NCBI GenBank assembly: GCA_001871595.1
Contig: MNVH01000033.1
Location: 1-41,106, forward strand
From: Candidatus Micrarchaeota archaeon CG1_02_55_22
GTDB taxonomy: Archaea > Micrarchaeota > Micrarchaeia > Norongarragalinales > UBA97
Length of the DNA stretch: 41,106 nucleotides
Reading direction: 5' to 3'
How positions within the stretch are numbered: position 1 is the first letter of the stretch; each line of letters begins with the position of its first letter. Of this stretch, positions 4,329-20,032 are shown piece after piece. The position numbers and the translations under genes were made by a program. The notes under the pieces are model-generated. The model did not search any database, was not told the origin of the DNA, and worked only from the letters and a program-made list of their open reading frames with translations.

Positions 4329-5890
4329 AGCCCTGCCTTCTTTCTTATCGCGTGCAACAGTGCGATATCGTTTTCTTCCAAGCCACCCAATAGCCAGAGC
4401 GCGGGAATGTAGACTATTGCGTAGACGAGTGCGAGGAAGCCCAATTCCCACAACGCGTGGTTGGTGATGAGTTTGTCGGCTTGGGTGAGCACGGCGAATG
4501 CTACGAGCGAGGCGGCGAGCACGCGGTAGTGGTAGTGCGAGAAGATTTGTACGCCGTACTCGCGTTTGGCAAAGATTCCGCCTACTATTCCATAGCACGC
4601 CATGGCCGCGGCCGCGCCCGCCGAGACGCCGAGGATTCCGTAGCCGGGCGCAAGGCCGTAGGAGAGCACGAGGCTTAGCACTACGCCGACGGCAATGCTG
4701 GCAAGAACGAGCAACGGTTTCTCGCGGATTTGCAGTACGATGAGAGATGGGAGGAAGAGTGCGTGGATGAAGTATCCCGCGGCGAGGAGCACAAGCGCGC
4801 TCGAGCCCGCGGCGTACGCTGGCCCGAAGAGCGCGGAGAGGAGTTGTGCCGAGTAGTATATGATTAGTATAGCGATGGGCAGTTGTCCCATTAGAGACCA
4901 TTTGGTTAAGTGGGTGAAAGTTGCCCGAGCCTCAGTTTTTTTGCCGAACACGATGAGTTTCGTCATTGCGGGGACGAAGAGCGAGAAAAGGACTATCGGG
5001 AAGAGGAACATGATGTCCGCGGTTGGAAGAACCGCGCTTAGTACGCCGACTTGCACCGCGTCAGAGTTGATGCTGAGCGCAGCCATCGCAATCCACGGGA
5101 TGAGCTGGTAGAGCACGGCCACGAGCGCGAGTGGTAAGGCAAAGTAAAGCATTTCCTTGAGTGGCGAGCGCTTGCCGTTGAAACCTAGCCCACCGGGGAA
5201 TAGTTTGTACAATAAGTAGATTGCCATTGCCGCCGCTGCGAGCGAGCCGAGTGCGAGTCCGAGCGCCGCGCCTTCAATGCCCAAGCCGAGCACGTAGAGG
5301 AAGAGCACGATGAATGCGAGGCGAGCGCCCGTTTCGACGAGGCTGCGGGTTGCAACTTCGTACTCGATTCTCCGTAAGGCGCGGAACGATGCGGCGAGAA
5401 CCATGGCTAGAACAGTAAAGGGTATGGCGAGCGCGGCGATTGCTATGAGCGGCGCCGCGTCAGGCTGGCGGAAGACTGCGTTGGCAAGCCACCCCGCGCC
5501 GAGGTAGAGCGCTATTGCAACCGCGACGCTTGCAGGCAAAGCTATACTTATAGCACGGCGAATGACTCGCTTCACGCCTTCGCGGTCACCTTTCTCCGCG
5601 CTTTTCGTAGCGAAGAAGAGGACGGCTTGGTCGAGCCCGAGGGTTGAAAGCAGGAAGGCCAGCGTGATGGTTGTTAGGGCTATGGAGAATAATCCGTAGC
5701 TGGCGGTATCGTAGCGTGCGACTACCGCGCGCGTGCCGTACTGGAATATTTTTGAGAGCACTAAACCGACTGCGGCAAAGCCTGCGCCGAGTAGTATAGT
5801 CTTGAGCCCGTCAATGCTGGTGGAATCCTTGCCCATACTATTCTGGTTAACGCTTTCAAGCCTTTTAATTAGCGTATTTCCGTCAGTCAC
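4325..5890 (-). CDS. Wzx-like lipid-linked oligosaccharide flippase
   Basis: A 521-residue protein of the polysaccharide biosynthesis/MOP (Wzx, RfbX) exporter family, with about 14 predicted membrane segments. It should flip a polyprenyl-linked glycan to the outer face of the membrane. Near residues 29-60 an amphipathic helix and a GxxxxxLSKIFQYGTR-like start of the first bundle are typical of the family. The start is GTG 5890, overlapping the aglB stop as GTGA; an ATG at 5836 would also be in frame but breaks the coupling. Directly downstream of aglB, so the glycan it flips is presumably the AglB donor (archaeal AglR-like role). Confidence 0.87.
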   Translation of the reverse strand: MTDGNTLIKRLESVNQNSMGKDSTSIDGLKTILLGAGFAAVGLVLSKIFQYGTRAVVARYDTASYGLFSIALTTITLAFLLSTLGLDQAVLFFATKSAEKGDREGVKRVIRRAISIALPASVAVAIALYLGAGWLANAVFRQPDAAPLIAIAALAIPFTVLAMVLAASFRALRRIEYEVATRSLVETGARLAFIVLFLYVLGLGIEGAALGLALGSLAAAAMAIYLLYKLFPGGLGFNGKRSPLKEMLYFALPLALVAVLYQLIPWIAMAALSINSDAVQVGVLSAVLPTADIMFLFPIVLFSLFVPAMTKLIVFGKKTEARATFTHLTKWSLMGQLPIAILIIYYSAQLLSALFGPAYAAGSSALVLLAAGYFIHALFLPSLIVLQIREKPLLVLASIAVGVVLSLVLSYGLAPGYGILGVSAGAAAAMACYGIVGGIFAKREYGVQIFSHYHYRVLAASLVAFAVLTQADKLITNHALWELGFLALVYAIVYIPALWLLGGLEENDIALLHAIRKKAGL

Positions 5891-8856
5891 GTGGATGAAT
5901 TCGTCGTTGCATTGGTGGCGTTTACCGACGAGTTGGTTTCCGGCGTTGGTGTTGTCACGGGCAAAGGCGTTGGTGCTGGCAAGGGATTGCCAGCTAGTGT
6001 TTGGGCGAGTTCAGTTTTAGATAGGTAGAAAGACGGGTCGATGCGGTATACCTTGATGAGGCCGTTGGGCGAGACGTACTCGAGCGTGGTGCCTTTGAGG
6101 TACTCGAAGAAGAATAGGCGCGCGTACGCCGAGTAGAAGACGCGGTTGTCCAGCGCGCCGTTCTGGCCGATTGCGTAGGAGAGGTCGGGGTTGATGTTGA
6201 TGAACTGGTTGTTGCCGGCGGGAACGAGGAAGCTCGTGTCCTCGTTCAAGTCGGTCTTGTCGTATGCGTCGCGCCCGAAGAGGACGAAGCGGCGCTCGTA
6301 GCCTGCTGCAAGGGTGTTCTGGTCCTGCAACAAGAGGAGCCGGTCGTTTGCAAGGCAGTACGTGGCGCCGGTGAGGCTGCTTCTAAGCGCGGGCATGTCA
6401 ACAGGCACGGCAGTTTTGGGGCATTGCCCTGTGACGGTTAAGTATTCGAAGTAGTGTTCGGCCTCGTAAGTGCTGCTGCCCGCGCCGTTCTTCCAGTCTA
6501 TCTCCGATGTTTCGGGGCATATTGGCGAAATGTCCTTGGTGCACGTTCCACTAAGAAAGACGAGCGCGCCCCATTTGGGTATGAGCTCGTTGTCGACGAG
6601 TATGTGCGTTGCCTGGTGGTACGTTGCCGTAAAGCGCAAGTTTTCGGGGTTGCCGTCGACAAAGCTGCGCGCGGTTTCGTGGTTGAATTGGGGTTGTTCG
6701 TTGCCGGGGTCGAGAACGCTCTGCGTTTCTCCGAAGAACGTCGTCCAGTGGCCGTAATCCCACCACGAGAGGACGCGGCACTTGAAGCCGTACTCTTTAA
6801 GGCACGCGTCGTCGGTGAAGCCCGGCGTCGTACTCATCCAATCATAGGCGGCGAGCCAGTCAGCGTTTATGCGTGAATACCGCAACTGCGCCATCGCGCC
6901 TTGCGGATCGCCGACAGTGGCGCCTTGAGCGAATACTACGTACAGGCCGGCTAGGAAGATGATTGCGAGGGCGGCCTTGGCTAACATGGTGCGATCCGAT
7001 TCTTTTTCGAGCGATTCGGTGAATCGGCGTGAGAAATCTAACAATAAACCGAGAATCACGGGCAAGGCGAGCGCGAGTGCTACTGCGAGGTGGAGGATGT
7101 ACTTGACTTTATTGAGCCCAATGTATGATACGGGCAGTATGATTAGCGCGAAGAACAAGGGCCCGTAGGAGAGCTTGTGTTTGGAGAGGGCGTAGTCGGT
7201 TAGTATGGCGATAATGGAGATTAGGAGGTAGAGGAATACGTCGCTAGAGGAAATGAATTTTGCTAGGAGTGCAAACTGTGAGACAAACGAGTTAACAAAC
7301 CAGAGTAGCAACGCGTCAAGCTGGTTGTTGAATACAATGACGAGCACCGCCAAGAGCGCCACGATGCCGGCAGCCGCCTTGCTTTTGTTCTGGTAGAGCG
7401 AGTGAATGCTGGCCGCGACGATGAGGAGCGTTAGCACGGGCAGCAAGAATGTGGGGTCGAGCGCGCCGAATGCACCCTTGAATATTCCCGGGTTAGTTGC
7501 ACCCTCCTCTGCTACGGTCTTGCCGAGCGCGCTAGATGCCTCGGCGAAACCGGCGGTTGCGTTGATATACGTGGTAACGCGCGACACTAGCCCGGGCGCT
7601 GCAGCCATGATTGCGGCGAAAAGGATTACTACCGCGGCCAGTACCTTCTTTCGGTCATGCTTTTCTAGTTGTCCTTCCTTTCCGAAGAACTTGTTGACTA
7701 GAATGAAGAATATCATGGGCACGGCGGCCGCAATCAGCACGAGGAGTTGCGCGGTAAAGCTGAATCCATTAGTAGTATACGCACCGAGAATAAAGTAGCC
7801 CACTATGCTGCCGACGATTATTCCCAGGTCGACCAAAGCGGTTCTGTCGTCCAGCTCGCCTCGCCAGAATACAATGAACGAGTGCAGGAAAAGGAAGAGC
7901 CCGATGACTAGCAAGGGCCAGATTGCTTGTGCCGAGCCTAGTATTGTAGTTACGGTGAAGAACGCGGCCAACGCTCCGAGGCGGAGGCTCTTGCGCTTGT
8001 TGGAAAGCCAGTACAATGAAAATAGGAGGATGGCGGAGTACAATCCGAACGGCTGGAGCTCGTTGACTCCCGCCCCGAATTTCGTCACGAGCTGGGGTGT
8101 GAACGCGAAAACGCCGGCTGCGATGACTCCGACGAAGTCGCCGTACTCTTCGCGCACGAGGATGAACGCAAGGAAACACATTAGTGCAGCGACGAGTGGC
8201 GGGTAGAATTGTGCGGTAAGCATGACTCGGTACTTGTCGAATCTGGCTCCCGTCAAAAGAGTATCCGCGTGAACCCACGACGCGGTCATATAGATTGCTT
8301 CAGGGTAGACGCGGTACGTCTTTTCAAGAGGGTAATAAACCTCAAAGCTCGATACCGGGACAGCACCGTTCTGCACTAGCATGGCGGTGACGTGGTCATA
8401 GTAGATAGGGTCGATTTCTTGGAAGCTTGTAGACCAGCCCGGCTCGAAGCGTACGTAGAACGCCAGCAGAATAATAAGTACTAGCAGTACGCGGGCAATG
8501 TTTTCTTTGGCGCTGAACGACTTGGGCGATATTTTTGGCAGCTTCGGCAGCATGTTCTCGAGCGAGAACTCAAAACCCTGCAAATACAGGCCGATTATTC
8601 CAATGAAGAGAACCAGTAAAGAGTTTGCTACCATCAATAAGGGGGAGAGCTTCATCCCGAGGAACACGAACTCGACTATCGCCATGGTGGGCGTGAGAAC
8701 GAGCCCGGAGATGAGCGCGATTATCGCTTTATCGAAGAACGAGAGCTTGACGCCGCGAAGCAGTGCGGCAGTGAATGCGGTAGCTGGAATGAATGAAAAG
8801 ATTGCGAGCTGCAGCAGGAGTCTGATGAAAAAGTCTAAAGTAGCTCCGTCTGCCAT
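5887..8856 (-). CDS. aglB: Oligosaccharyltransferase STT3/AglB
   Basis: The catalytic subunit of archaeal N-glycosylation, moving a lipid-linked glycan to Asn in N-x-S/T sequons at the outer membrane face. The protein has 989 residues. The first loop carries the metal-binding acidic pair in FQEIDPIYYDHV (about 145-156). A TIXE-type motif reads TVAE at 447-450. The hallmark WWDYG motif is at 698-702, starting the soluble extracellular domain. Two to three extra membrane segments precede the usual first segment, with a spacer to residue 118. The C-terminal tail from about 958 is Pro/Thr-rich and ends in four overlapping sequons (Asn975, 979, 982, 986). A GGAG Shine-Dalgarno (8866-8869) precedes ATG 8856. 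It forms an operon with the flippase (GTGA overlap). Confidence 0.93.
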   Translation of the reverse strand: MADGATLDFFIRLLLQLAIFSFIPATAFTAALLRGVKLSFFDKAIIALISGLVLTPTMAIVEFVFLGMKLSPLLMVANSLLVLFIGIIGLYLQGFEFSLENMLPKLPKISPKSFSAKENIARVLLVLIILLAFYVRFEPGWSTSFQEIDPIYYDHVTAMLVQNGAVPVSSFEVYYPLEKTYRVYPEAIYMTASWVHADTLLTGARFDKYRVMLTAQFYPPLVAALMCFLAFILVREEYGDFVGVIAAGVFAFTPQLVTKFGAGVNELQPFGLYSAILLFSLYWLSNKRKSLRLGALAAFFTVTTILGSAQAIWPLLVIGLFLFLHSFIVFWRGELDDRTALVDLGIIVGSIVGYFILGAYTTNGFSFTAQLLVLIAAAVPMIFFILVNKFFGKEGQLEKHDRKKVLAAVVILFAAIMAAAPGLVSRVTTYINATAGFAEASSALGKTVAEEGATNPGIFKGAFGALDPTFLLPVLTLLIVAASIHSLYQNKSKAAAGIVALLAVLVIVFNNQLDALLLWFVNSFVSQFALLAKFISSSDVFLYLLISIIAILTDYALSKHKLSYGPLFFALIILPVSYIGLNKVKYILHLAVALALALPVILGLLLDFSRRFTESLEKESDRTMLAKAALAIIFLAGLYVVFAQGATVGDPQGAMAQLRYSRINADWLAAYDWMSTTPGFTDDACLKEYGFKCRVLSWWDYGHWTTFFGETQSVLDPGNEQPQFNHETARSFVDGNPENLRFTATYHQATHILVDNELIPKWGALVFLSGTCTKDISPICPETSEIDWKNGAGSSTYEAEHYFEYLTVTGQCPKTAVPVDMPALRSSLTGATYCLANDRLLLLQDQNTLAAGYERRFVLFGRDAYDKTDLNEDTSFLVPAGNNQFININPDLSYAIGQNGALDNRVFYSAYARLFFFEYLKGTTLEYVSPNGLIKVYRIDPSFYLSKTELAQTLAGNPLPAPTPLPVTTPTPETNSSVNATNATTNSST

Positions 8857-8975: not shown

Positions 8976-9806
8976 GTGTTCTCGCTGCGAATCGACATCG
9001 ATAGCCGTTACGGCCTGCTGCACGGGCTGCCCAACATACTCGAATCGTTGCGCCGCCACGACGTGAAAGCGTCGTTCTTCATCCCAACCGGCGGCGAAAG
9101 CAGCCTCGCCGACTTATTCCGCTACCGCGGTGGCTCCCGCGGCGCAATGGGCGGCGTGAGCCTGCCAAAACAGGAAATCCTTCGCATGGCTCTACTGCCC
9201 CGAAACTTTGCCGAAGAAAACGCGGGCTGGCTTAAAGACAACCTTATCGCTCAAGGACACGAGCTCGGCGTACACGCATTCAAGCACCGCGCGTGGACGC
9301 GGGCGCTAGACAAGATAGACGCCGCAGAACACGTCCGCCTCGCAACCCTTGCATTCACAAAAATATTTGGTTTCAAGCCTTCCTCGTTCGCCGCCCCCGC
9401 CTACCGCACCAGCCTCGCCGTGCTCGAAGCGCTCGACCGCGAGGGCTATGTTTGCGCCGGCGACTTGCCCGGCGAACACGCCTTTCACCCAATAATCGGT
9501 AAAAAACGTTTCAACCACGTTCAAGTGCCGGTCAACCTCAGGCAACCCTCAACCGACCCGTTAATCGAATCGTTCTCAAGTCAGGGAATGAGCGATGACG
9601 CGGTAATCAGCCAGGTGTGCCGGCGCATTGACGACGCGGGCGATTATGCGGTATTATACGGCCACGATTACTTTGAGGGAGCAGTGCGGCCGAAAATACT
9701 CGATGCCGTGCTCGGCCACGTCAAGAAGCAAGGGCTGCAAACCAAGACTATGAGTCAAATCGCTCGCGTAACCACGACGAACGAAGAAATCGAGATGCTA
9801 AAATGA
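8976..9806 (+). CDS. ArnD-like NodB-family deformylase/deacetylase
   Basis: A 276-residue NodB-fold hydrolase most like ArnD, which removes the formyl group from polyprenyl-phosphate-linked 4-formamido-arabinose. ArnD-like features are the opening FSLRIDIDSRYGLLHGLP, then VKASFFIPTG, the metal-binding GHELGVHAFKHRAW (about 90-103), FAAPAYRTS for the RxP motif, and a late LYGHDYFEG resembling the HAExEG region of ArnD. The window also encodes a sugar formyltransferase and FolD, so a deformylase role is attractive. It starts with GTG 8976, because an in-frame stop lies immediately upstream, and overlaps the thiolase start as ATGA. Being cotranscribed with acyl-CoA genes is odd. A general polysaccharide N-deacetylase is the alternative. 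Confidence 0.72.
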   Translation: MFSLRIDIDSRYGLLHGLPNILESLRRHDVKASFFIPTGGESSLADLFRYRGGSRGAMGGVSLPKQEILRMALLPRNFAEENAGWLKDNLIAQGHELGVHAFKHRAWTRALDKIDAAEHVRLATLAFTKIFGFKPSSFAAPAYRTSLAVLEALDREGYVCAGDLPGEHAFHPIIGKKRFNHVQVPVNLRQPSTDPLIESFSSQGMSDDAVISQVCRRIDDAGDYAVLYGHDYFEGAVRPKILDAVLGHVKKQGLQTKTMSQIARVTTTNEEIEMLK

Positions 9807-10939
9807 CTGCGTTCATCACCGGAACAGGAAAGACCAAGTTCGGCGTGCTATCCGAATCCTTATCCCAACTATTGCAAAAGGCGGTGGACGAGTGCCTGGA
9901 AAACGCTGGTCGAACCATCAACGACGTCGACGCGGTTTACTTGGCAAACTTTCTCGGCGGGCCGCAAGAATCACAGCTCCACTTAAACGCGCTCTTCTCC
10001 AGCATTTATGGGTTCGAGAAACCGGCCCTCCGCGTAGAAGCCGCGTGCGCGTCCGGCGCCGTTGCGCTCAACCAAGGCATTGCTGCACTCCAAAAGTTCG
10101 ACCGCGTGCTTGTGGTGGGCGTTGAAAAGCTTTCGGGCACGGACTCTAAGACCGCGTCGTCAAGCATTGCCATGGCCGGCGGGCGCATCCTCGACCAGCA
10201 AAACGGCATCATCTTTCCCGCAGCCTACGCGCTCCTCGCACAGCAACATTTCCTCCGTTATGGTTCCTCTATCGACGACTTGACGTTAATAAGCCTCAAA
10301 AACCACGCCAACGCAAACCTCAACCCTAAAGCGCACTTCTACTCGAAAAATGTTACCCGCGAGATGATTGAACAATCCCCGTTGGTTTCCACGCCTCTAC
10401 GCCTCTTTGATTGTTCACCAATAAGCGACGGCGCCGCAGCCGTACTGCTGGAAAAGGACGCGGGCCGCGCGAGAGCACGCGTCAGCGCCTCGCAATTGCG
10501 CACCGACACCATCTCCCTAATTGAACGTAACGATTTGACGTCTTTCAAGGCCGTCCGCCAAGCCGCCGCAGCAGCCTACGCCGAGGCTGGCATCACTCCC
10601 GCCGACGTTGATTTAGCTGAAGTCCACGATTGCTTTACCATAGCCGAACTCGTCGCTTACGAGGACTTGGGTTTCGCGTCCGCCGGCGAAGGCAAGCAAC
10701 TCGTTCGTAGCCACGCAACCGAACTCAACGGTGCTCTGCCAGTCAACACGGATGGTGGGCTCAAGGCCGACGGCCACCCCATAGGTGCAACCGGCGTCGC
10801 CCAAGCAGTCGAACTTACGCTGCAACTCTCGCGCGAGGCGGGCAAGCGACAAGTTGACGGCGCAAAAACCGGTTTGTGCCATAACGTTGGTGGAATCGGC
10901 GGTACCGCGGCAATACAAGTACTGGAGGCAGTAGAATGA
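9803..10939 (+). CDS. SCP-x-like thiolase (acetyl-CoA C-acetyltransferase)
   Basis: A 378-residue thiolase of the archaeal/SCP-x type that would join two acetyl-CoA into acetoacetyl-CoA, or cleave longer ketoacyl-CoA. The nucleophilic cysteine is Cys82 in EAACASG. Other signatures are EVHDCFTIAE, NTDGGLKADGHPIGATG with the catalytic His, and GLCHNVGG near the C-terminus. Archaeal thiolases of this type are known to form complexes with a DUF35 protein and HMG-CoA synthase. Here the next gene, overlapping by ATGA, carries a DUF35-like OB segment fused to a dehydrogenase. No HMG-CoA synthase is present in the window. Confidence 0.87.
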   Translation: MTAFITGTGKTKFGVLSESLSQLLQKAVDECLENAGRTINDVDAVYLANFLGGPQESQLHLNALFSSIYGFEKPALRVEAACASGAVALNQGIAALQKFDRVLVVGVEKLSGTDSKTASSSIAMAGGRILDQQNGIIFPAAYALLAQQHFLRYGSSIDDLTLISLKNHANANLNPKAHFYSKNVTREMIEQSPLVSTPLRLFDCSPISDGAAAVLLEKDAGRARARVSASQLRTDTISLIERNDLTSFKAVRQAAAAAYAEAGITPADVDLAEVHDCFTIAELVAYEDLGFASAGEGKQLVRSHATELNGALPVNTDGGLKADGHPIGATGVAQAVELTLQLSREAGKRQVDGAKTGLCHNVGGIGGTAAIQVLEAVE

Positions 10940-11949
10940 CGACTGCAAAGAAAACTGCTAGAACAATCGGCTTCACTACCGTGCACGCCCCATCAAAGGA
11001 GCACCCGTCGGTTCCGTACCACGTAGCGCTCTTGCGCGACTCTGACGGCAAGCACCACGTCCGTAAGACGTTCAAGTTGCCCGAAATAGGGCAAAGCTTT
11101 GACTTGGAAGGCAAGGGTACCGTTTCCCACGTGGGAATCGCTGGCACCGGGGTAATGGCTGCGGGCATTGCGTTGCTATGCCTTGAAAACGAGCTTAACG
11201 TCGTGGCAAAAGCCCGCAGCGCTGCCGCCGCGGAAAAGCTCGCTTCCGCAGTCAGTAAACAACTCGCTAAGAAAATGGATGACGCACAGGCAAGTTCTAC
11301 CGCTAAACGCTTCTCGACAACGCTCGCGCCGAGCGGCCTATCGGGCTGTCAAATCGTAGTCGAGGCAGTTGCCGAAGACCTCGCAATAAAGCAAAAACTT
11401 TTCAGTGAGCTTGACGCCGTGCTCCCACCTAATATCGTACTCGCCTCGAACACGTCCTCGCTATCAATAAAGGAAATCGCCGCAAACTGCCGCCACAAGG
11501 AAAGAGTTGCAGGAATGCATTTCTTCAACCCGGTCTCAAAAATGCAGCTCGTCGAAGTGGTTAAGACTAACGAGACTAATGACGAGGCGGAGAAAACCAT
11601 TTCTGAACTAGCACACCAGCTCGGCAAGACGCCTATAACAGTCAAGGACTCGCCAGGCTTCATCGTTAATCGTTTGTTAATGCCATTCCTGAACGATGCC
11701 GTACGGCTCGTCGAAGAAGGCGTTTCCGAGCCAGCGACAATAGACTCAGCTGTAAAGCTCGGGCTCAACCATCCAATGGGCCCACTCGCGTTAGTGGACT
11801 TGATTGGCATCGACGTATTCGTCGAAATAATGCGCGAGCTGCAGAGAAAAACCGGCGACAAATCTTTTGCTCCCCGCCCCTTAGCCCTAAAGCTCTTGAA
11901 TGAAGGCAAGCTTGGAAGAAAAACGGGCGAAGGATTCTACAAGTACTGA
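10936..11949 (+). CDS. 3-hydroxyacyl-CoA dehydrogenase with N-terminal DUF35-like OB extension
   Basis: A 337-residue protein. Residues 64-337 form a complete 3-hydroxybutyryl/3-hydroxyacyl-CoA dehydrogenase: GIAGTGVMAAGIA is the NAD-binding loop, IVVEAVAED and ASNTSSL are family motifs, GMHFFNPV holds the catalytic His, and NHPMGPLALVDLIG is the C-terminal domain signature. Residues 1-62 are extra for the family and resemble the C-terminal OB fold of DUF35 proteins (TTVHAP, then VPYHVALLRDSDG and an IGQSFDL-like end). The zinc ribbon of normal DUF35 is absent. The start overlaps the thiolase stop as ATGA. The protein would reduce the thiolase product; the OB part may dock it on the thiolase. 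The dehydrogenase assignment is firm; the OB assignment is by pattern only. Confidence 0.85.
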   Translation: MTTAKKTARTIGFTTVHAPSKEHPSVPYHVALLRDSDGKHHVRKTFKLPEIGQSFDLEGKGTVSHVGIAGTGVMAAGIALLCLENELNVVAKARSAAAAEKLASAVSKQLAKKMDDAQASSTAKRFSTTLAPSGLSGCQIVVEAVAEDLAIKQKLFSELDAVLPPNIVLASNTSSLSIKEIAANCRHKERVAGMHFFNPVSKMQLVEVVKTNETNDEAEKTISELAHQLGKTPITVKDSPGFIVNRLLMPFLNDAVRLVEEGVSEPATIDSAVKLGLNHPMGPLALVDLIGIDVFVEIMRELQRKTGDKSFAPRPLALKLLNEGKLGRKTGEGFYKY

Positions 11950-11962: not shown

Positions 11963-11988
11963 GCCACTTGTGCGTAAGCTTTTTTGTG

Positions 11989-12726
11989 ATGAAGCGCGTG
12001 CCTTTAAGCAAGTACAACGACCACGCTACTCACGAGGAGTTCAACAAGGAGGAAATCCGTGGCGCCGTGATGCGGCAGATTATACTTGGCGGGCAGGACG
12101 GCCTCGTCAATGTTCTCGGAATAGTGCTCGGAGTGGCGACCGCCACGGGCGATTCCCGCCTCGTCCTATTATCCGGCGTCGCCGCGACGTTCGCCGAAAG
12201 CATTTCCATGGCCGCCGTCGCTTACACTTCAACTAAAGCGCAAAAGGAGTACTACCAGAAGAAGCTCGACGAGGAAAAGTACGAGATTGAAGTATTCCCG
12301 AAGTTCGAACGCAAGGAAATCCACGACATCTACTACAAGAAGGGCTTCCGCGGCAAGCTCCTAGCCGAGGTAGTCAAACACATTACTTCTAACAAGGCTC
12401 GTTGGGCTAGTGAAATGATGGTGGGAGAGCTCGGCATGACGGATAGCGAGTTCGATGCGCCAAGCCGCGAAGCGTTTGTTGTCGGAATCGCCTCTTTTGT
12501 CGGCTCCCTAATCCCCCTCGCCCCGTTCTTCTTCATGCCCTCCGGGCCCGCGACGATAGCATCACTAATATTTTCTGGAATAATCCTTCTTGCAGCCGGC
12601 GCAATCAAGGCACGGTTCACTACCGGCAAGCCAATCAAGGGCGCAGCCGAGCTGGCCGTAATAGGTATACTCTCCGCGCTGGCAGGTTACGTGATAGGAT
12701 TACTGTTCACTGCGACAGGGTTCTAG
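11989..12726 (+). CDS. VIT/CCC1-family Fe2+/Mn2+ transporter
   Basis: A 245-residue membrane protein of the VIT1/CCC1 family, which exports or stores Fe2+ and Mn2+. IRGAVMRQIILGGQDGLVNVLGIVLGV and the following ATFAESISMAAVAY match the first two family membrane segments; three further segments fill the C-terminal part. Between them lies a charged cytoplasmic region rich in Glu and Lys (about residues 73-150), where the family binds metal. The start is set by the TATA box. It is a single-gene unit after the thiolase operon. Confidence 0.85.
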   Translation: MKRVPLSKYNDHATHEEFNKEEIRGAVMRQIILGGQDGLVNVLGIVLGVATATGDSRLVLLSGVAATFAESISMAAVAYTSTKAQKEYYQKKLDEEKYEIEVFPKFERKEIHDIYYKKGFRGKLLAEVVKHITSNKARWASEMMVGELGMTDSEFDAPSREAFVVGIASFVGSLIPLAPFFFMPSGPATIASLIFSGIILLAAGAIKARFTTGKPIKGAAELAVIGILSALAGYVIGLLFTATGF

Positions 12727-12732
12727 ACCCGC

Positions 12733-13221
12733 TCATTTAAGTGCCACGTACTCTACCGAGCCGTCGCTTTTCCGTACAATCTTCTTAATCGGGCGCGCCG
12801 GCACGCCGACCGCGACCGTATTAGCAGGAATGTCCTTGTTTACCAGCGCGCACGCACCAATCACAGCGCCGTCACCAATTGTAACGCCCGGCATTATCGT
12901 TACGTTGGCGCCCAAGTACACGTTCTTTCCGATGACTACTTTCCTAAAGTCGCACTCGCTGCCGTGCCATTCGGGCGAAGAGTCGTGCGAGAAAATGCTG
13001 TTACGAAAACCGATTCCTGTGCCTTCGCCTATCTCAACCATCGTCTCCTTAATCTCAGGGGGTTGGTCAATAAACGCCAAGTACCCAATCCATACCCCGC
13101 GTCCAATCCTTACGCCGCGGGCCTTGTTTGCCCACACCCGGATAAAGCTGAACGGACCAAAAACCGCGAGGGGAACAAGGATGACGCCGAAAAGCCGGTG
13201 CACGAATTCGCGTATTTTCAT
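12733..13221 (-). CDS. Hexapeptide-repeat (LbH) acyltransferase
   Basis: A 162-residue left-handed beta-helix acyltransferase of the WbbJ/Maa type, likely to O- or N-acetylate a surface sugar. An N-terminal hydrophobic stretch (about 10-30) may anchor it to the membrane. Hexapeptide turns include VRIGRGVWIGY, VVIGKNVYLGANVTIMPGVTIGDGAVIGA; the motif FSHDSS carries the presumed catalytic His, and VGVPARPIKKI closes the domain as usual. Divergent from the GT-C gene at 13282, with a shared central AT box. It lies just beyond the formyltransferase end of the glycan run. Confidence 0.82.
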   Translation of the reverse strand: MKIREFVHRLFGVILVPLAVFGPFSFIRVWANKARGVRIGRGVWIGYLAFIDQPPEIKETMVEIGEGTGIGFRNSIFSHDSSPEWHGSECDFRKVVIGKNVYLGANVTIMPGVTIGDGAVIGACALVNKDIPANTVAVGVPARPIKKIVRKSDGSVEYVALK

Positions 13222-14631: not shown

Positions 14632-15300
14632 CTATTTTTCTAGTTCCGCGCGTTTAATCAATAGTTTCTTGCCGTCCTTGCCGCGCAAGAACGCGTTCGG
14701 GTACGGGTCTTCAAGGCAGCGAACAAAGTCGTACAACTCTCCCGCGGTCATTGACGCAATTTTTTCCGCTGACAGTTCGCTCTCTTCCGGCGTGCGGCGC
14801 TTTACTAGCGTGGCTTGCGAGTGGTCCTGCAAAACAGGCTTCAAGTCAGGGTAATCCGTGACGAGCTTGCGGAACAGTTTTAGTCCAGTTGATGTGATGC
14901 GGTCGAGCACTTCGTCGAGGTGGCCGTCGAGCGGCATCTGTTCCTGTCCGTAAAGAGGCCCCTCGTCAAACTTTTCAGTCAGCTGGAAGAGCGACACGCC
15001 GCCGACGCGTTCGCCGGCAATAATCTGGTTCTGTATCGGGCTCCCGCCGCGATACTTCGGCAGTAACGACGGGTGCAGGCCGATAATGAGGTATTCCTCG
15101 TACAGTTCGGCCGGTACGAACCAGTTCCAGCCCGCCATGAAGAACAGGTCTGGCGCGAAAGCGTCGACTGCCGCGCGTGTGAGCCCGGCTTTCGTCGATA
15201 CGTGCAGGACCTCGTGGCCGTCTTCTTTGAGCGCTTCAACGATGCGGTTGGCCCAGTCGCGGTAGGATACGAAGACAATCCTGCGCTTTGGAGTATTCAA
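14632..15300 (-). CDS. Sugar N-formyltransferase (10-formyl-THF dependent)
   Basis: A 222-residue protein of the formyltransferase family (PurN, Fmt, ArnA N-domain, WbkC). It is too short for Met-tRNA formyltransferase (about 310), and its context points to an amino sugar. GLHPSLLPKYRGGSPIQ carries the catalytic His76, and FDEGPL supplies Asp112. The Asn that normally precedes the His by two positions is Gly74 here, a notable change. The C-terminal part (ELYDFVRCLEDPYPNAF) resembles the Fmt C-terminal region. The start is taken as TTG 15300, overlapping the upstream stop as TTGA; GTG 15339 would add 13 unlikely residues. Last gene of the long minus-strand run that also contains folD, the aminotransferase and the 4,6-dehydratase. 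Confidence 0.8.
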   Translation of the reverse strand: MNTPKRRIVFVSYRDWANRIVEALKEDGHEVLHVSTKAGLTRAAVDAFAPDLFFMAGWNWFVPAELYEEYLIIGLHPSLLPKYRGGSPIQNQIIAGERVGGVSLFQLTEKFDEGPLYGQEQMPLDGHLDEVLDRITSTGLKLFRKLVTDYPDLKPVLQDHSQATLVKRRTPEESELSAEKIASMTAGELYDFVRCLEDPYPNAFLRGKDGKKLLIKRAELEK

Positions 15301-15974
15301 GCAATCCGCCCTTCCCGCGGGTGCTTCTCGAACCACCACTGCGGGTGCGTCAAGAGCGTTATCTTGTCAAACTTGTCGATGTACTCTTCAGGGCCGTGCT
15401 CGTACCACCCGATGTGGCCGTCAATCCTCTCGGAAACGTACTTGGATTCTTTGACAAAAACGTCTTCGTACGCCTGGTAGTCAAAGCCCATTGCAGCTAA
15501 ATCCATTCCCTGCAACAACGGGAGCGTGTTCGCGGCGTAATTTATGTCGCGGTGGGGCGCTAGGCCGTGGACCTCGTGGCCAAGGCAGGCTTCAAGGAAC
15601 GCTTTCTCGCGCGCAAGAAGCGCGTCAGGTTTCTCTGCACCGTGCATTGCTGCAAACTCGCTCGCCTCGGTGTGTAAACCCAGCTCGTGGCCGGCGGACT
15701 CGAGGCGCTTGAGCAACGCGTAATTGTTGTACTCGAACGGGTTGTAGTGAGTGTGCACGCGCAAGAAGTACGTCGCTTTAACGCCCAGTTCGTCTTCCAC
15801 GCGCGCGAATCCCGCAGCGCGCTCAAAAAAGTTGTCCACGTCGTGGCGTAACAAGAACGTCTTTCCTTTGGGCTTCTTTGTGTGGTACTCGCTGAAGGTA
15901 TAGAACGTGTAGCCCGCTTCAAGCGCTTTAGTGATAACTTCTTTGTAGTGGTTGAAAGTAAAGTCGTAATCCAT
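15297..15974 (-). CDS. NodB-like polysaccharide deacetylase (WbmS-like)
   Basis: A 225-residue hydrolase of the polysaccharide deacetylase superfamily. LLRHDVDNFFERA gives the DVD metal/base motif, VKATYFLRVHTHYNPF the second strand, and GHELGLHTEASEF the His pair that binds zinc. LAPHRDINY stands where the RxPY motif is expected. Such proteins sit in O-antigen clusters and may remove an N-acetyl group before another acyl group is added. It abuts the dehydratase stop with no gap and overlaps the formyltransferase start, so removing acetyl and adding formyl to the same amine is one possible job. Confidence 0.75.
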   Translation of the reverse strand: MDYDFTFNHYKEVITKALEAGYTFYTFSEYHTKKPKGKTFLLRHDVDNFFERAAGFARVEDELGVKATYFLRVHTHYNPFEYNNYALLKRLESAGHELGLHTEASEFAAMHGAEKPDALLAREKAFLEACLGHEVHGLAPHRDINYAANTLPLLQGMDLAAMGFDYQAYEDVFVKESKYVSERIDGHIGWYEHGPEEYIDKFDKITLLTHPQWWFEKHPREGRIA

Positions 15975-17006
15975 TTACTTCGCCTTTGCATCGAACGGCT
16001 TGAATTCTGGCACGACCTCGTCGGGAGGCGTAATCTTCTTCAGCAACGCCTTTATCTGTTCGTCAGAGAGTTGTTCCGTGCCCTTGCTGTCGTACTCGAA
16101 CCAGTCCTTGCGCAGCTTCGCGCCTTTTGCCTGGTCGTACCAGTACGTGACGAAGTGGTCGTCGAACTCGTGCGTCCGCGTCATTTCTTCCTCGCTGACA
16201 AGAATCTCGTGAATCTTCTCCCCCGGACGCAGGCCAGTGACCTTGACGGGGTAGTCCGCGCGGTTGGCGTAGACTTCGCCCATCACGCGGGCGAGTTGGG
16301 TGATCTTGCACGCGGGCATCTTGCGTACGAACGTCTCCCCGCCCTTGCCCTCGCTCACCGCGAGGAAAACAAGGTTGATTGCCTCGTCTAGGGTGAGCCA
16401 GAATCGCGTCATGCGTTCGTCCGTAATTGTAAGCGGCTTTCCGTCCTTGATGAGCTGCTGGAAGCGCGGGATGACCGAACCACGGCTGCCAATGACGTTG
16501 CCGTAACGTACGCACATGAATCGGGTATCGCTGCGCCCATTGGCCGCAAAGAAAATCTTTTCCTGAATAGCTTTAGACATGCCCATTGCGTTGATGGGCT
16601 TAACCGCCTTGTCGGTACTGACCGTGACGACTTGACCGACGCCAGCATCGATTGCGGCCTCGACAACGTTCTTCGAGCCAATAATATTGGTTTTCACCGC
16701 CTCGAACGGGAAGTACTCGCACTGCGGTACGTGCTTGAGCGCCGCGGCGTGGAAAACCACGTCAACGCCGTACATGACTTCGTCCAAGCGAGCCGCGTCG
16801 CGTACGTCGCCGATTTGGAACTTCAGCAAGTCCTTGTGCTCGGCATACTTGTTGCACATGTGGTACTGCTTGTTCTCGTCGCGGCTGAATATGGTTATCT
16901 TTGCCGGGTTCATCAAGAGCAGCCGGTCTACAATCTGGTTGCCGAAGCTCCCCGTGCCGCCCGTGACAAGCACGTTTTTTCCCTTCAAAAGCGTCTGATC
17001 GTCCAT
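15975..17006 (-). CDS. CapE/WbjB-like UDP-GlcNAc 4,6-dehydratase
   Basis: An SDR enzyme of 343 residues that should convert UDP-GlcNAc to a UDP-2-acetamido-2,6-dideoxy-4-keto sugar, some members also epimerising C5. TGGTGSFG (15-22) binds NADP. The catalytic region reads STDKAVKPINAMGMSK (130-145): Asp132 and Lys133 are the dehydratase pair, and Met141 replaces the SDR Tyr, as in CapE-type rather than PseB-type enzymes. RYGNVIGSRGSVIPRF is a further signature. The start is ATG 17006, preceded by GGGGCGA as ribosome site; ATG 17024, overlapping the GT2 stop as TAATG, is possible and adds six residues. The downstream DegT aminotransferase could use its product. Confidence 0.87.
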   Translation of the reverse strand: MDDQTLLKGKNVLVTGGTGSFGNQIVDRLLLMNPAKITIFSRDENKQYHMCNKYAEHKDLLKFQIGDVRDAARLDEVMYGVDVVFHAAALKHVPQCEYFPFEAVKTNIIGSKNVVEAAIDAGVGQVVTVSTDKAVKPINAMGMSKAIQEKIFFAANGRSDTRFMCVRYGNVIGSRGSVIPRFQQLIKDGKPLTITDERMTRFWLTLDEAINLVFLAVSEGKGGETFVRKMPACKITQLARVMGEVYANRADYPVKVTGLRPGEKIHEILVSEEEMTRTHEFDDHFVTYWYDQAKGAKLRKDWFEYDSKGTEQLSDEQIKALLKKITPPDEVVPEFKPFDAKAK

Positions 17007-17023
17007 TAAATCGCCCCTTTGCA

Positions 17024-17989
17024 TTAAACGTATGACAAGAATATTCTTTTAAGCGGTGACTCGGAGAAGAAACCGCCAAAAAATGGCGTTCTCGACGGGG
17101 ATCCAAGGAATCCAGCGAGTTTCCTGCGTCGCGCGAGCCCGTCGCGAAGCACGTCAAACAACCCAGCTAGCACGCCAGCGCGTGCACGCGCCCTCTGCCA
17201 ATCGCGTTTTACCAAGTCTTTTGCGATGACTGCTATACGTAAGAGTACCGCGTAAGGAAAATATGCAGCCAGCCGCCCAGCCGGCAGGTGGCTTATCATT
17301 GTGACAAGCATGTTGCGCTCGATGCGCGTAGTGAGCTCTCCGGGCGTGAATATCTTGCGCGCCTGGTAGCCCATGTGGTAGAGCACGGCGTCGGAAAGCA
17401 TTTCAGTTAGGTATCCTGCGCGCAACAAGCGCAAGCCCAAGTCGACGTCTTCGGCGTAGATGAAGAATGACGGTTCGTAAAGGAACCCGCCGGCTTTCTC
17501 CAGTGCGCTGCGGCGCACGAGGCCCACGCCTGAGAATGGCATATTAACCGTGCCTTGCGGCCAGGTGTGCACCGCTCCGCCGTAAAACCCGCGCGAGAGC
17601 CAAGAGCCGCCAATGTCGATGCGGGCCCGGTCGTTGCCGTTCACGTTGACTGGAACGGCCATGCCGCAGTCCTCGTGCTCGTCCAAGTGGCGCGCCAAGC
17701 GTTTCATGCAGTCCGGTTCGAACTCCATGTCGGTTGCACCGATAAACACGTAGTCGCCCGTTGCAAGCGGCAGGCCGAGGTTGAATACCGGCGTGCCAAT
17801 GTTGCGCTCGTTGCGAACGTACTTTATTCCCTTGTCTGCTATGAATTCTTTCGTTCCGTCGCTAGACGCGTTATCGCACACGACTATCTCGACTGGAACG
17901 GTCTGCCGGGACAAGTTTGCCAAGACTTTTTTCAGGTTGGGCAGCTCATCCATCGTGATGAGCAGCACCGTTACGCTGCCTTTAGGCAT
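17024..17989 (-). CDS. GT2-family glycosyltransferase (rhamnosyltransferase-like)
   Basis: A 321-residue GT-A glycosyltransferase. The opening VTVLLITMDELPNLKKVLANL is typical of WbbL-like family 2 enzymes; VVCDNASSDGTKEF gives the nucleotide-binding Asp, and FIGATDMEFEPDC stands at the DxD position. FIYAEDVDLGLRLLRAGY is the conserved ED base motif, and YHMGYQARK follows. It should add one sugar to the growing lipid-linked glycan on the cytoplasmic side. It overlaps the aminotransferase by 8 nt. Confidence 0.85.
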   Translation of the reverse strand: MPKGSVTVLLITMDELPNLKKVLANLSRQTVPVEIVVCDNASSDGTKEFIADKGIKYVRNERNIGTPVFNLGLPLATGDYVFIGATDMEFEPDCMKRLARHLDEHEDCGMAVPVNVNGNDRARIDIGGSWLSRGFYGGAVHTWPQGTVNMPFSGVGLVRRSALEKAGGFLYEPSFFIYAEDVDLGLRLLRAGYLTEMLSDAVLYHMGYQARKIFTPGELTTRIERNMLVTMISHLPAGRLAAYFPYAVLLRIAVIAKDLVKRDWQRARARAGVLAGLFDVLRDGLARRRKLAGFLGSPSRTPFFGGFFSESPLKRIFLSYV

Positions 17990-19106
17990 TTTTCACAGCC
18001 TCCTTTGTCGCGTTCGCGATGCGCTGCAAGTCGTCTTGCGTGAGCCACCATCCACACGGGATGTTGAGTTTTCTTGCGTCGAAGCGTGCTACGGCCGAGT
18101 CGTCGCCCAGCGCCTCATTGCCTAGTCCTTTGTAGATGTCGTTGCGGGTGTGCGAAACCGAGTTGTCTATTCCTTGCGCGCTGAGGCTGTCCGATATAGC
18201 GCGTTTCTTGTCGGGTTCGACTAGTATAGTTAGTATCCAGTAGCTCGGATCGGCTCCGTCGGCAACGCGCGGGAACCCAACCGTGCCGTCAAGCTCGCTT
18301 TTCAGCGTCTTGGCGTTCTCCTTGTGCCTTGTCACAATCCCGTCCAAGTACTTCAGCTGCTCTAAACCTATTGCCGACGAGACGTCGTTCGTGTTCATCT
18401 TGTAGCCGGCTCCCGCGTACTCTTCGAAACCTTTTATCGAGTCGCGTTGCTCCTTGCGGTTCAAGCCAAACCACCGCAGTTTCGTGATGCGTTCGGCGTC
18501 CTCGGGTTTCTTGCACGCGACCGCGCCGCCCTCGATGGTTGTAATGTGTTTTATCGCCTGGAAAGAAAAGCACGCGTACTCGGAGTGGTTGCCTATCTTC
18601 TTGCTCTTGTAAAGCGCGCCAAGCGCGTGCGCCGAGTCCTCTACTACCGGAACGCCGTGCTTTTGTGCCACTCTGTGTATCGCGTCCAAGTCGGCAGGCA
18701 TTCCGCTCCAGTGGACCAGCATGATTGCGCGTGTGTCCTCGTCTATAGTCTCGTCTATCGACGCCGCCGAAATGTTCCCCGTGTCCTCTTCAACATCCGC
18801 CCACTTGATTGCCGCCCCGGCCTCGCGTATTGGCGTGTTTGTGGCAATGCAAGTCATGGGCGTTGAGACCACGTTCGGCTTTTCAGTAGGCTCGCCCGAG
18901 TCGAGCGCTTGGCGTACCGAGAGCGCGAGCGCGCCGGTGCACGAGCTAGTCAGTACCGTGTTAGGGTTTCCTACCCACTCGCCGAAACGCTTCTCGAACT
19001 CGTCCGACTTGGGCCCTTGGGCGATATAGCCAGAAAACAATACTTCTTCGAGTACGGACATCACGTCTTTAGGCATGTGCACTCTGTAAAGCGGTATCCG
19101 TTCCAT
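17982..19106 (-). CDS. DegT/DnrJ/EryC1 sugar aminotransferase
   Basis: A 374-residue PLP-dependent sugar aminotransferase that would aminate a 4-keto nucleotide sugar. VVEDSAHALGALY holds the cofactor Asp157, and SFQAIKHITTIEGG holds the PLP-binding Lys186. YKMNTNDVSSAIGLEQL is the family signature for the subunit interface. The start is ATG 19106; the GTG just before it is less likely. With the CapE-like dehydratase, the expected product is a UDP-4-amino-4,6-dideoxy-HexNAc, a natural substrate for the formyltransferase in the same run. Perosamine-synthase-like activity cannot be excluded. Confidence 0.88.
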   Translation of the reverse strand: MERIPLYRVHMPKDVMSVLEEVLFSGYIAQGPKSDEFEKRFGEWVGNPNTVLTSSCTGALALSVRQALDSGEPTEKPNVVSTPMTCIATNTPIREAGAAIKWADVEEDTGNISAASIDETIDEDTRAIMLVHWSGMPADLDAIHRVAQKHGVPVVEDSAHALGALYKSKKIGNHSEYACFSFQAIKHITTIEGGAVACKKPEDAERITKLRWFGLNRKEQRDSIKGFEEYAGAGYKMNTNDVSSAIGLEQLKYLDGIVTRHKENAKTLKSELDGTVGFPRVADGADPSYWILTILVEPDKKRAISDSLSAQGIDNSVSHTRNDIYKGLGNEALGDDSAVARFDARKLNIPCGWWLTQDDLQRIANATKEAVKNA

Positions 19107-19129
19107 CACACATCACTTCCATTTCTAAG

Positions 19130-19981
19130 CTAGGCAGTTGCGGCGCGTTCTTGCGCGGCTTCGACCAAGTTTTCCAGCAAGCTTGCAATTGTCATTGGGC
19201 CCACGCCGCCTGGAACCGGCGTCACGTACGAGGCCTTCTCGCACACGCGTGGGTCTACGTCTCCCACCACGCTGCGTTTCCCGCCGGACTCGACAAAATT
19301 CGTTCCAACATCAACGACAACCGCGCCGTCTTTAACCATTTCCGGCGTTACGATGCCTGCCTTGCCTACTGATGAGACGATGATGTCCGCGTCGCGGCAT
19401 ACCTCGGCCAGATTGGCGGTCTTGCTATGCGCAATCGTTACCGTGGCATCCTCCGCGAGAAGCAGGCCCGCGATGGGAATGCCGACGTCGGGGCTGCGGC
19501 CTATTACGACTGCCCTCTTTCCCGCCAGCTCGACTCCGTTGGCGTGGAGCAGTGCCATGATGCCTTTAGCGGTTGCGGCTACAAAGCCGGGCTTGCGCTC
19601 GAATATGCGCGCAAGATTTATTGGGTTAAGCCCGTCAACGTCTTTTTCCGGCGAGATTGCGGCCAGGCACTCGGCGGCGTCTGTTCCTTTTGGCAACGGT
19701 AACTGCAAGAGTATGCCGTCAACGCTGGAATCGTTGTTGAACGCGTCGATCGCCGCAAGCACTTGCCGCGTGCCGGCAGACGCCGGCAGGCGCTTCAAGA
19801 CGAACTCTCCGCCTATCTTCGTGCACGCGTCCTTCTTGAGCCGCACGTACAATTCGGACGCCGAGTCTTCGCCGACTAGTATTATCCCGAGCGTAGGCTG
19901 TACGCCCCGGGTTACCCTGGTTTTCAGTTCGTCAAGAACCTTGCTGCTAAGCGCTTTTCCGTCGAGAATAATAGCTGTCAT
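19130..19981 (-). CDS. folD: FolD methylene-THF dehydrogenase/cyclohydrolase
   Basis: A bifunctional 283-residue enzyme that oxidises 5,10-methylene-THF and hydrolyses it to 10-formyl-THF. The catalytic YVRLK (Tyr45, Lys49) matches YxxxK of the family. DGILLQLPLP, KDVDGLNPIN, GRSPDVGIPIAGLL and TPVPGGVGPMTIASLL are all present. The start is ATG 19981; the frame opens six codons earlier but without a better signal. Many archaea use tetrahydromethanopterin rather than folate, so FolD inside a glycan operon is telling: its likely job here is to supply formyl groups to the sugar formyltransferase downstream, although general C1 metabolism is not excluded. Confidence 0.94.
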   Translation of the reverse strand: MTAIILDGKALSSKVLDELKTRVTRGVQPTLGIILVGEDSASELYVRLKKDACTKIGGEFVLKRLPASAGTRQVLAAIDAFNNDSSVDGILLQLPLPKGTDAAECLAAISPEKDVDGLNPINLARIFERKPGFVAATAKGIMALLHANGVELAGKRAVVIGRSPDVGIPIAGLLLAEDATVTIAHSKTANLAEVCRDADIIVSSVGKAGIVTPEMVKDGAVVVDVGTNFVESGGKRSVVGDVDPRVCEKASYVTPVPGGVGPMTIASLLENLVEAAQERAATA

Positions 19982-20032
19982 GATGTCTAACCGCAACAAT
20001 TGTTTTAGGCGCCAAACTAATAAATAACGCGT

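Follow-up and report, generated by a model that had tools for sequence, protein, structure and literature searches.

In the archaeal thiolase/DUF35/HMG-CoA synthase complex (PDB 6ESQ), a DUF35 protein links an SCPx-type thiolase to an enzyme that uses acetoacetyl-CoA. DUF35 domains are also found fused to the enzyme of a neighbouring pathway step, as in the Shy-Sal and ChsH1/ChsH2-Ltp2 hydratase-aldolases of steroid catabolism, where the fused enzyme is a MaoC hydratase and binding to a thiolase-superfamily protein is proven (PMC11321319, PMC12329534). The DUF35 domain tethers Shy to Sal (PMC11321319), and in CtShy-CtSal its N-terminal helix wraps the thiolase-superfamily partner and is part of the interface; 93% of the intermediate is released, with no significant channelling (PMC12329534). 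Proteins joining DUF35 to Rossmann domains related to SDRs were described by Krishna et al. in 2010 (PMC2954200). In bacterial capsules and surface polysaccharides, both R- and S-3-hydroxybutanoyl groups are present on related amino-deoxy sugars (PMC9676051, PMC4869667).

The window, by which we mean the whole 41,106-nt stretch of micrarchaeal DNA analysed, encodes a predicted DUF35-derived OB domain fused to a 3-hydroxyacyl-CoA dehydrogenase (3HCDH), next to a thiolase (Table 1). As in the 6ESQ complex, the thiolase is SCPx-type, of the same broad family, and a DUF35 domain would link it to an enzyme using acetoacetyl-CoA; the differences are that this enzyme is a reductase and not HMG-CoA synthase, that the DUF35 part is fused and ribbonless, and that the genes of the normal complex are present elsewhere in the window genome. 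The fusion to a neighbouring pathway enzyme is shared with the hydratase-aldolases, and the pairing of DUF35 with a Rossmann-fold, acyl-CoA-related reductase with the fusions of Krishna et al., but the window protein and four relatives carry a 3HCDH in place of an SDR. The initial annotation suggested a new channelling pair. A 3HCDH fusion is not listed in the literature consulted on DUF35 fusions; the general design is not new, hydratases and NAD(P)-Rossmann reductases with a fused DUF35 being already known (PMC2954200, PMC11321319).

Table 1. Features of the fusion locus and its surroundings in the window.
Positions	Strand	Feature	Evidence
5887..8856	-	AglB/STT3 oligosaccharyltransferase, adjoins the triplet	PF21436 E 2.8e-5; WWDYG motif
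8976..9806	+	ArnD-like polysaccharide-deacetylase-family protein, first of the triplet	PF01522 E 2.9e-7; NF011923 ArnD E 3.6e-22, below cut-off
9803..10939	+	SCPx-type acetoacetyl-CoA thiolase, dedicated	NF004720 E 2.4e-118; NF053570 E 5.1e-102, below cut-off
10936..11121	+	DUF35-derived OB domain without zinc ribbon (residues 1-62), putative thiolase dock	Profile-profile match to DUF35; PF01796 E 0.016 alone
11122..11949	+	3-hydroxyacyl/3-hydroxybutyryl-CoA dehydrogenase moiety (residues 63-337)	Pfam, NCBIfam, alignment, PDB relatives 4R1N/4KUH
12733..13221	-	Hexapeptide acyltransferase, candidate acyl-CoA user (weak inference)	PF00132 E 1.2e-13
14632..15339	-	Sugar-type formyltransferase	PF00551 E 2.1e-18
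15975..17024	-	PseB/FnlA-type UDP-GlcNAc 4,6-dehydratase, amino-sugar synthesis context	TIGR03589 E 2e-106, below cut-off
17982..19109	-	PseC-like DegT aminotransferase	TIGR03588 E 4.4e-62, below cut-off; PF01041 E 1.1e-77

The fusion gene and its partner thiolase

The fusion gene (10936-11949, rightwards) codes for 337 amino acids, with approximately 62 residues preceding a full 3HCDH. Pfam places 3HCDH_N at residues 65-238 (E 6.5e-51) and 3HCDH at residues 241-337 (E 2.4e-34), and with the catalytic Ser, His, Glu and Asn also present (S174, H195, E207 and N245 in the alignment) the protein is a member of the 3HCDH family; the OB part is thus fused to a complete enzyme of the step after the thiolase, as had been proposed. 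The same alignment, in which four unfused 3HCDH rows were disregarded, places AKAR, an NADP-like sequence, at the end of beta2 in the window protein and [AV][KN][AST]R in all five 3HCDH fusions, where most other aligned 3HCDHs have Asp. The residue pattern at the end of beta2 is a general indicator of NADPH preference among Rossmann folds, and by this rule the cofactor of the window 3HCDH is probably NADPH. Enzymes of the 3HCDH family usually yield the S isomer, which is not the one that PHA synthase requires, and SDR enzymes usually the R product. Immediately 3' of the fusion gene, the same strand encodes a VIT1/CCC1-family metal transporter (11968-12726), with no evident link to the fusion.

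The previously reported 4 nt overlap between the thiolase and fusion genes is present as a shared ATGA, the fusion starting at 10936, and the ArnD-like gene upstream likewise overlaps the thiolase gene by 4 nt. The thiolase retains the catalytic Cys and the HDCF and GHPIGATG motifs, and one of the families it matches, NF053570, is that of the Methanothermococcus acetoacetyl-CoA thiolase, which works together with a DUF35 protein. No HMG-CoA synthase is encoded at the fusion locus; it is found at a second locus of the genome (G000:C57) with its own mevalonate thiolase and a canonical DUF35. Every genome of the order with an above-cut-off DUF35 has a single canonical copy that is distinct from the fusion.

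Origin of the OB domain

Residues 1-62 had been likened to the OB fold of DUF35, and profile comparison bears this out. Searched alone against Pfam, the extension has the ChsH2/DUF35 OB family PF01796 as its sole match (E 0.016; 15.5 bits, below the 27.1 cut-off). When the fusion N-termini from six genomes are compared by hhalign with 14 canonical DUF35 proteins from the same order as the window genome, the match is strong (Prob 97, E 8.9e-11) and pairs ribbon with ribbon and OB with OB. The OB part alone scores 34.2 against DUF35 (E 5.2e-6), compared with a mean of 10.7 and a maximum of 19.4 (best E 5.6e-3) for 200 column-shuffled OB profiles, and a P-Y motif is invariant in both the fused OB domains and canonical DUF35.

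AlphaFold predicts the OB domain as four beta strands at low pLDDT, both in the full-length fusion and for residues 1-67 alone, from an alignment without OB homologues. Foldseek with the model of residues 1-67 gave no significant match (best E 1.1, with the DUF35 chains of 6OK1 at E 3.3-3.5), and a PDB search with the ribbon and OB sequence gave none. The DUF35 N-terminal helix is absent from the fusions.

A zinc ribbon (CxxC...CxxC) precedes the OB domain in three relatives (G010, G016 and G102), which thus have a ribbon-OB-3HCDH architecture, and is absent from the fusions of the window genome, G019 and G027. The ribbon was correctly described at the outset as missing from the window protein; because the three relatives retain it before the same OB domain, the ancestral fusion most likely had a ribbon too, which was lost secondarily. 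As the window protein is without a ribbon, its extension is best described, on sequence grounds, as a DUF35-derived OB domain rather than a full DUF35 protein. The canonical DUF35 of the window genome (L106:4648-5049, G000:C57) has itself lost all four zinc-ribbon cysteines, reading SRDEETG...ISPAVRR where relatives show CxxC...CxxC, which mirrors what happened in the fusion protein.

Distribution and exchange of the reductase

The initial annotation called for a search for the fusion in other archaeal genomes, and the fused OB domain is present, at E below 1e-20, in six of 301 genomes of the phylum, all assemblies 70-90% complete, so that absences are soft. Full-length fusions are found in the same-order genomes G016, G010 and G019 and in G102 of the same class, where the gene runs into an assembly gap. 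In the sixth genome, G027, the same OB domain is joined to a FabG-type SDR (adh_short_C2, E 1.4e-67), beside a thiolase of the same type; this protein belongs with the DUF35-SDR fusions of Krishna et al.

Thiolases 51-57% identical to that of the window occur only in the same six genomes, the next best matches (45-46%) being mevalonate-type copies; the thiolase paralogue and the fused OB domain thus occur together in 6/6 genomes and in 0/295 others, in agreement with the claim of a dedicated partner. The thiolase gene adjoins the fused-OB gene in all six, with overlaps of 4-8 nt in four, and the order ArnD-like/thiolase/fusion is kept in G010, G016 and G019. The six fusion-linked thiolases form one clade (100/100), apart from five mevalonate copies of the same genomes, and the five fused 3HCDH moieties form another (97/91), to which none of the 28 unfused 3HCDHs from that class belongs. 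With the OB domain and thiolase constant while the reductase changes in G027, the OB domain would serve the thiolase-reductase pair as a dock, and this swap together with the co-occurrence supports coupling of the two activities.

The fusion is patchily distributed across families f1, f4, f7 and f16, a pattern produced by transfer or by repeated loss. Two genomes of different families share almost identical thiolase and DUF35 loci of the mevalonate type (L123 and L124; G006:C78 and G027:C4), probably reflecting a foreign contig in one of the bins; the G027 thiolase and OB-SDR genes are on one contig, and their pairing holds whichever organism they come from. An OB profile search of 398 genomes in the phylum of a Hecatellales genome gave nothing credible, only two weak matches in unrelated frames. 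A contig search for relatives recovered only unfused 3HCDHs, and none of those 80 loci matched an HMM built on the fused domain. In an Ammonifex (Bacillota) contig (L017:1-2929), thiolase, free DUF35 and 3HCDH are encoded by separate neighbouring genes, an unfused counterpart.

Surroundings of the triplet

The triplet lies among genes for surface-sugar synthesis, including, in addition to those in Table 1, a GlcNAc-1-P transferase, a flippase, a glycosyltransferase and sugar-nucleotide genes. A glycan gene context also surrounds the fused OB domain in G010, G016, G019 and G027; by eye, an AglB-like gene is near the triplet in the first three of these, and a close homologue of the window's hexapeptide acyltransferase is beside it in G019. 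A second polysaccharide-deacetylase-family gene in the window (15297-15974) overlaps the formyltransferase gene by 43 nt, and the window encodes more than one hexapeptide acyltransferase. The same cluster contains a gene that appears FolD-like by eye (19130-19999) and could supply 10-formyl-THF. In the surface-glycan region of G010 that contains its fusion, another ArnD-like gene has a 4-nt overlap with a gene for an N-acyltransferase of the AAC(3) type (PF02522, E 6e-46; L223:821-2811). That deacetylase genes recur next to genes for acyl handling suggests an exchange in which acetyl groups are taken off and other acyl groups added.

Enzymes that could use 3-hydroxybutyryl-CoA

Enoyl-CoA hydratase was not found in five of the six fusion genomes and is marginal in G016; acyl-CoA dehydrogenase was not found in the same number and is present in G016. 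Both enzymes are encoded in G084 and G053, which have an unfused 3HCDH. PhaC (PF07167, PhaC_N) had no match in any of the six, although this search has a narrow control, with only one of 14 control genomes (Caulobacter) positive. Most fusion genomes therefore encode no recognisable way of taking 3-hydroxybutyryl-CoA on to crotonyl-CoA or polyester, and after these searches roles of the pair in beta-oxidation or PHB synthesis were considered unlikely. Other genomes of the class have beta-oxidation-like operons (L101, L103, L105, L098) coding for acyl-CoA dehydrogenase, enoyl-CoA hydratase, thiolase, unfused 3HCDH and a CoxG-like protein, which is unusual for such small archaeal genomes.

Discussion

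The reading we favour, and consider reasonably probable, is that the dedicated thiolase and the OB-docked reductase form a two-enzyme unit that makes 3-hydroxybutyryl-CoA from two acetyl-CoA. The thiolase would convert two acetyl-CoA to acetoacetyl-CoA, the OB domain would dock the 3HCDH on the thiolase in the way that free DUF35 proteins attach to thiolases of the SCPx type, and the 3HCDH would reduce acetoacetyl-CoA to 3-hydroxybutyryl-CoA; we infer the docking, the direction of the reactions and the cofactor. Docking is favoured because DUF35-MaoC fusions bind a thiolase-superfamily partner and DUF35-SDR fusions are on record, and is disfavoured by the very short linker between the OB domain and the 3HCDH, by the low confidence of the predicted OB fold and by the absence of the N-terminal helix that forms part of the thiolase interface elsewhere. 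Strict channelling is possible and is not needed for a two-enzyme unit; given its absence at any significant level in CtShy-CtSal, claiming it for the window pair would exceed the evidence.

It is less likely, if still a serious prospect, that the OB domain aids folding or assembly of the dehydrogenase, or binds acyl-CoA, without touching the thiolase, the gene overlap reflecting co-expression only. Acyl-CoA binding is the role that Krishna et al. put forward for DUF35 (PMC2954200), and the missing helix and the loss of the ribbon in three of the six fusions fit such a reading; against this, the same OB domain precedes an unrelated SDR and so is not tied to one enzyme, it always occurs together with a single thiolase clade, and wherever the partner of a DUF35 domain is known, that partner is a member of the thiolase superfamily (PMC11321319, PMC12329534). 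That the extension is a functionless leftover is very improbable: its lost ribbon, apparently missing fifth OB strand and low-confidence fold are what a vestige might show, but between G010 and G016 it is conserved like the enzyme (68% compared with 64%), it is 37-41% conserved over longer distances, and its P-Y motif is invariant.

Two further accounts concern the fate of the product rather than the OB domain. The pair could run towards acetyl-CoA, completing beta-oxidation or consuming 3-hydroxybutyrate, the enzymes being reversible and unfused 3HCDHs of the same class lying in beta-oxidation-like operons; we regard this as unlikely, since five of the six genomes are missing the hydratase and acyl-CoA dehydrogenase that the unfused controls possess, the cofactor site is NADP-like, the neighbours are glycan and not fatty-acid genes, and the fused and unfused 3HCDHs are separate clades. 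Synthesis of polyester (PHB) would begin with the same two steps, as in haloarchaea with two-gene PhaA and BktB thiolases (phaA and bktB of H. mediterranei are each two co-transcribed genes; PMC8387396), yet it has barely any likelihood here, with PhaC_N in none of the six genomes by the narrowly controlled search and the expected S isomer unsuitable for PHA synthase.

For the proposed thiolase-reductase unit, a tentative destination of 3-hydroxybutyryl-CoA is the surrounding N-glycan cluster, where it might donate its 3-hydroxybutyryl group to an amino sugar made there, once the ArnD-like protein has freed the amine. The A. baumannii and Hafnia pathways (qhb, psaGH, lgaHI, fdhC, qdhC) are comparable in producing 3-hydroxybutanoyl amino-deoxy sugars, and differ in being bacterial and in that dedicated thiolase-reductase genes are not described for them in the available text (PMC9676051, PMC4869667). 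Among candidate N-3-hydroxybutyryl transferases in the window none is proven, which counts against this step. The different expected products, S for the 3HCDH and R for the SDR, imply that the downstream step accepts either isomer or differs between genomes. More speculatively, and with some doubt on our part, a DUF35-docked unit with interchangeable reductases may feed N-acylation of N-glycan amino sugars after the ArnD-like step, with a parallel deacetylase and formyltransferase adding formyl groups.

The joining of the same domain, with the same thiolase line, to two unrelated reductases would make the DUF35 dock a portable connector, and the role of DUF35, whether docking or acyl-CoA binding, becomes testable with small soluble proteins. 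For the biology of these archaea, the locus may represent an acyl-donor branch of surface-glycan synthesis in organisms that are mostly without beta-oxidation.
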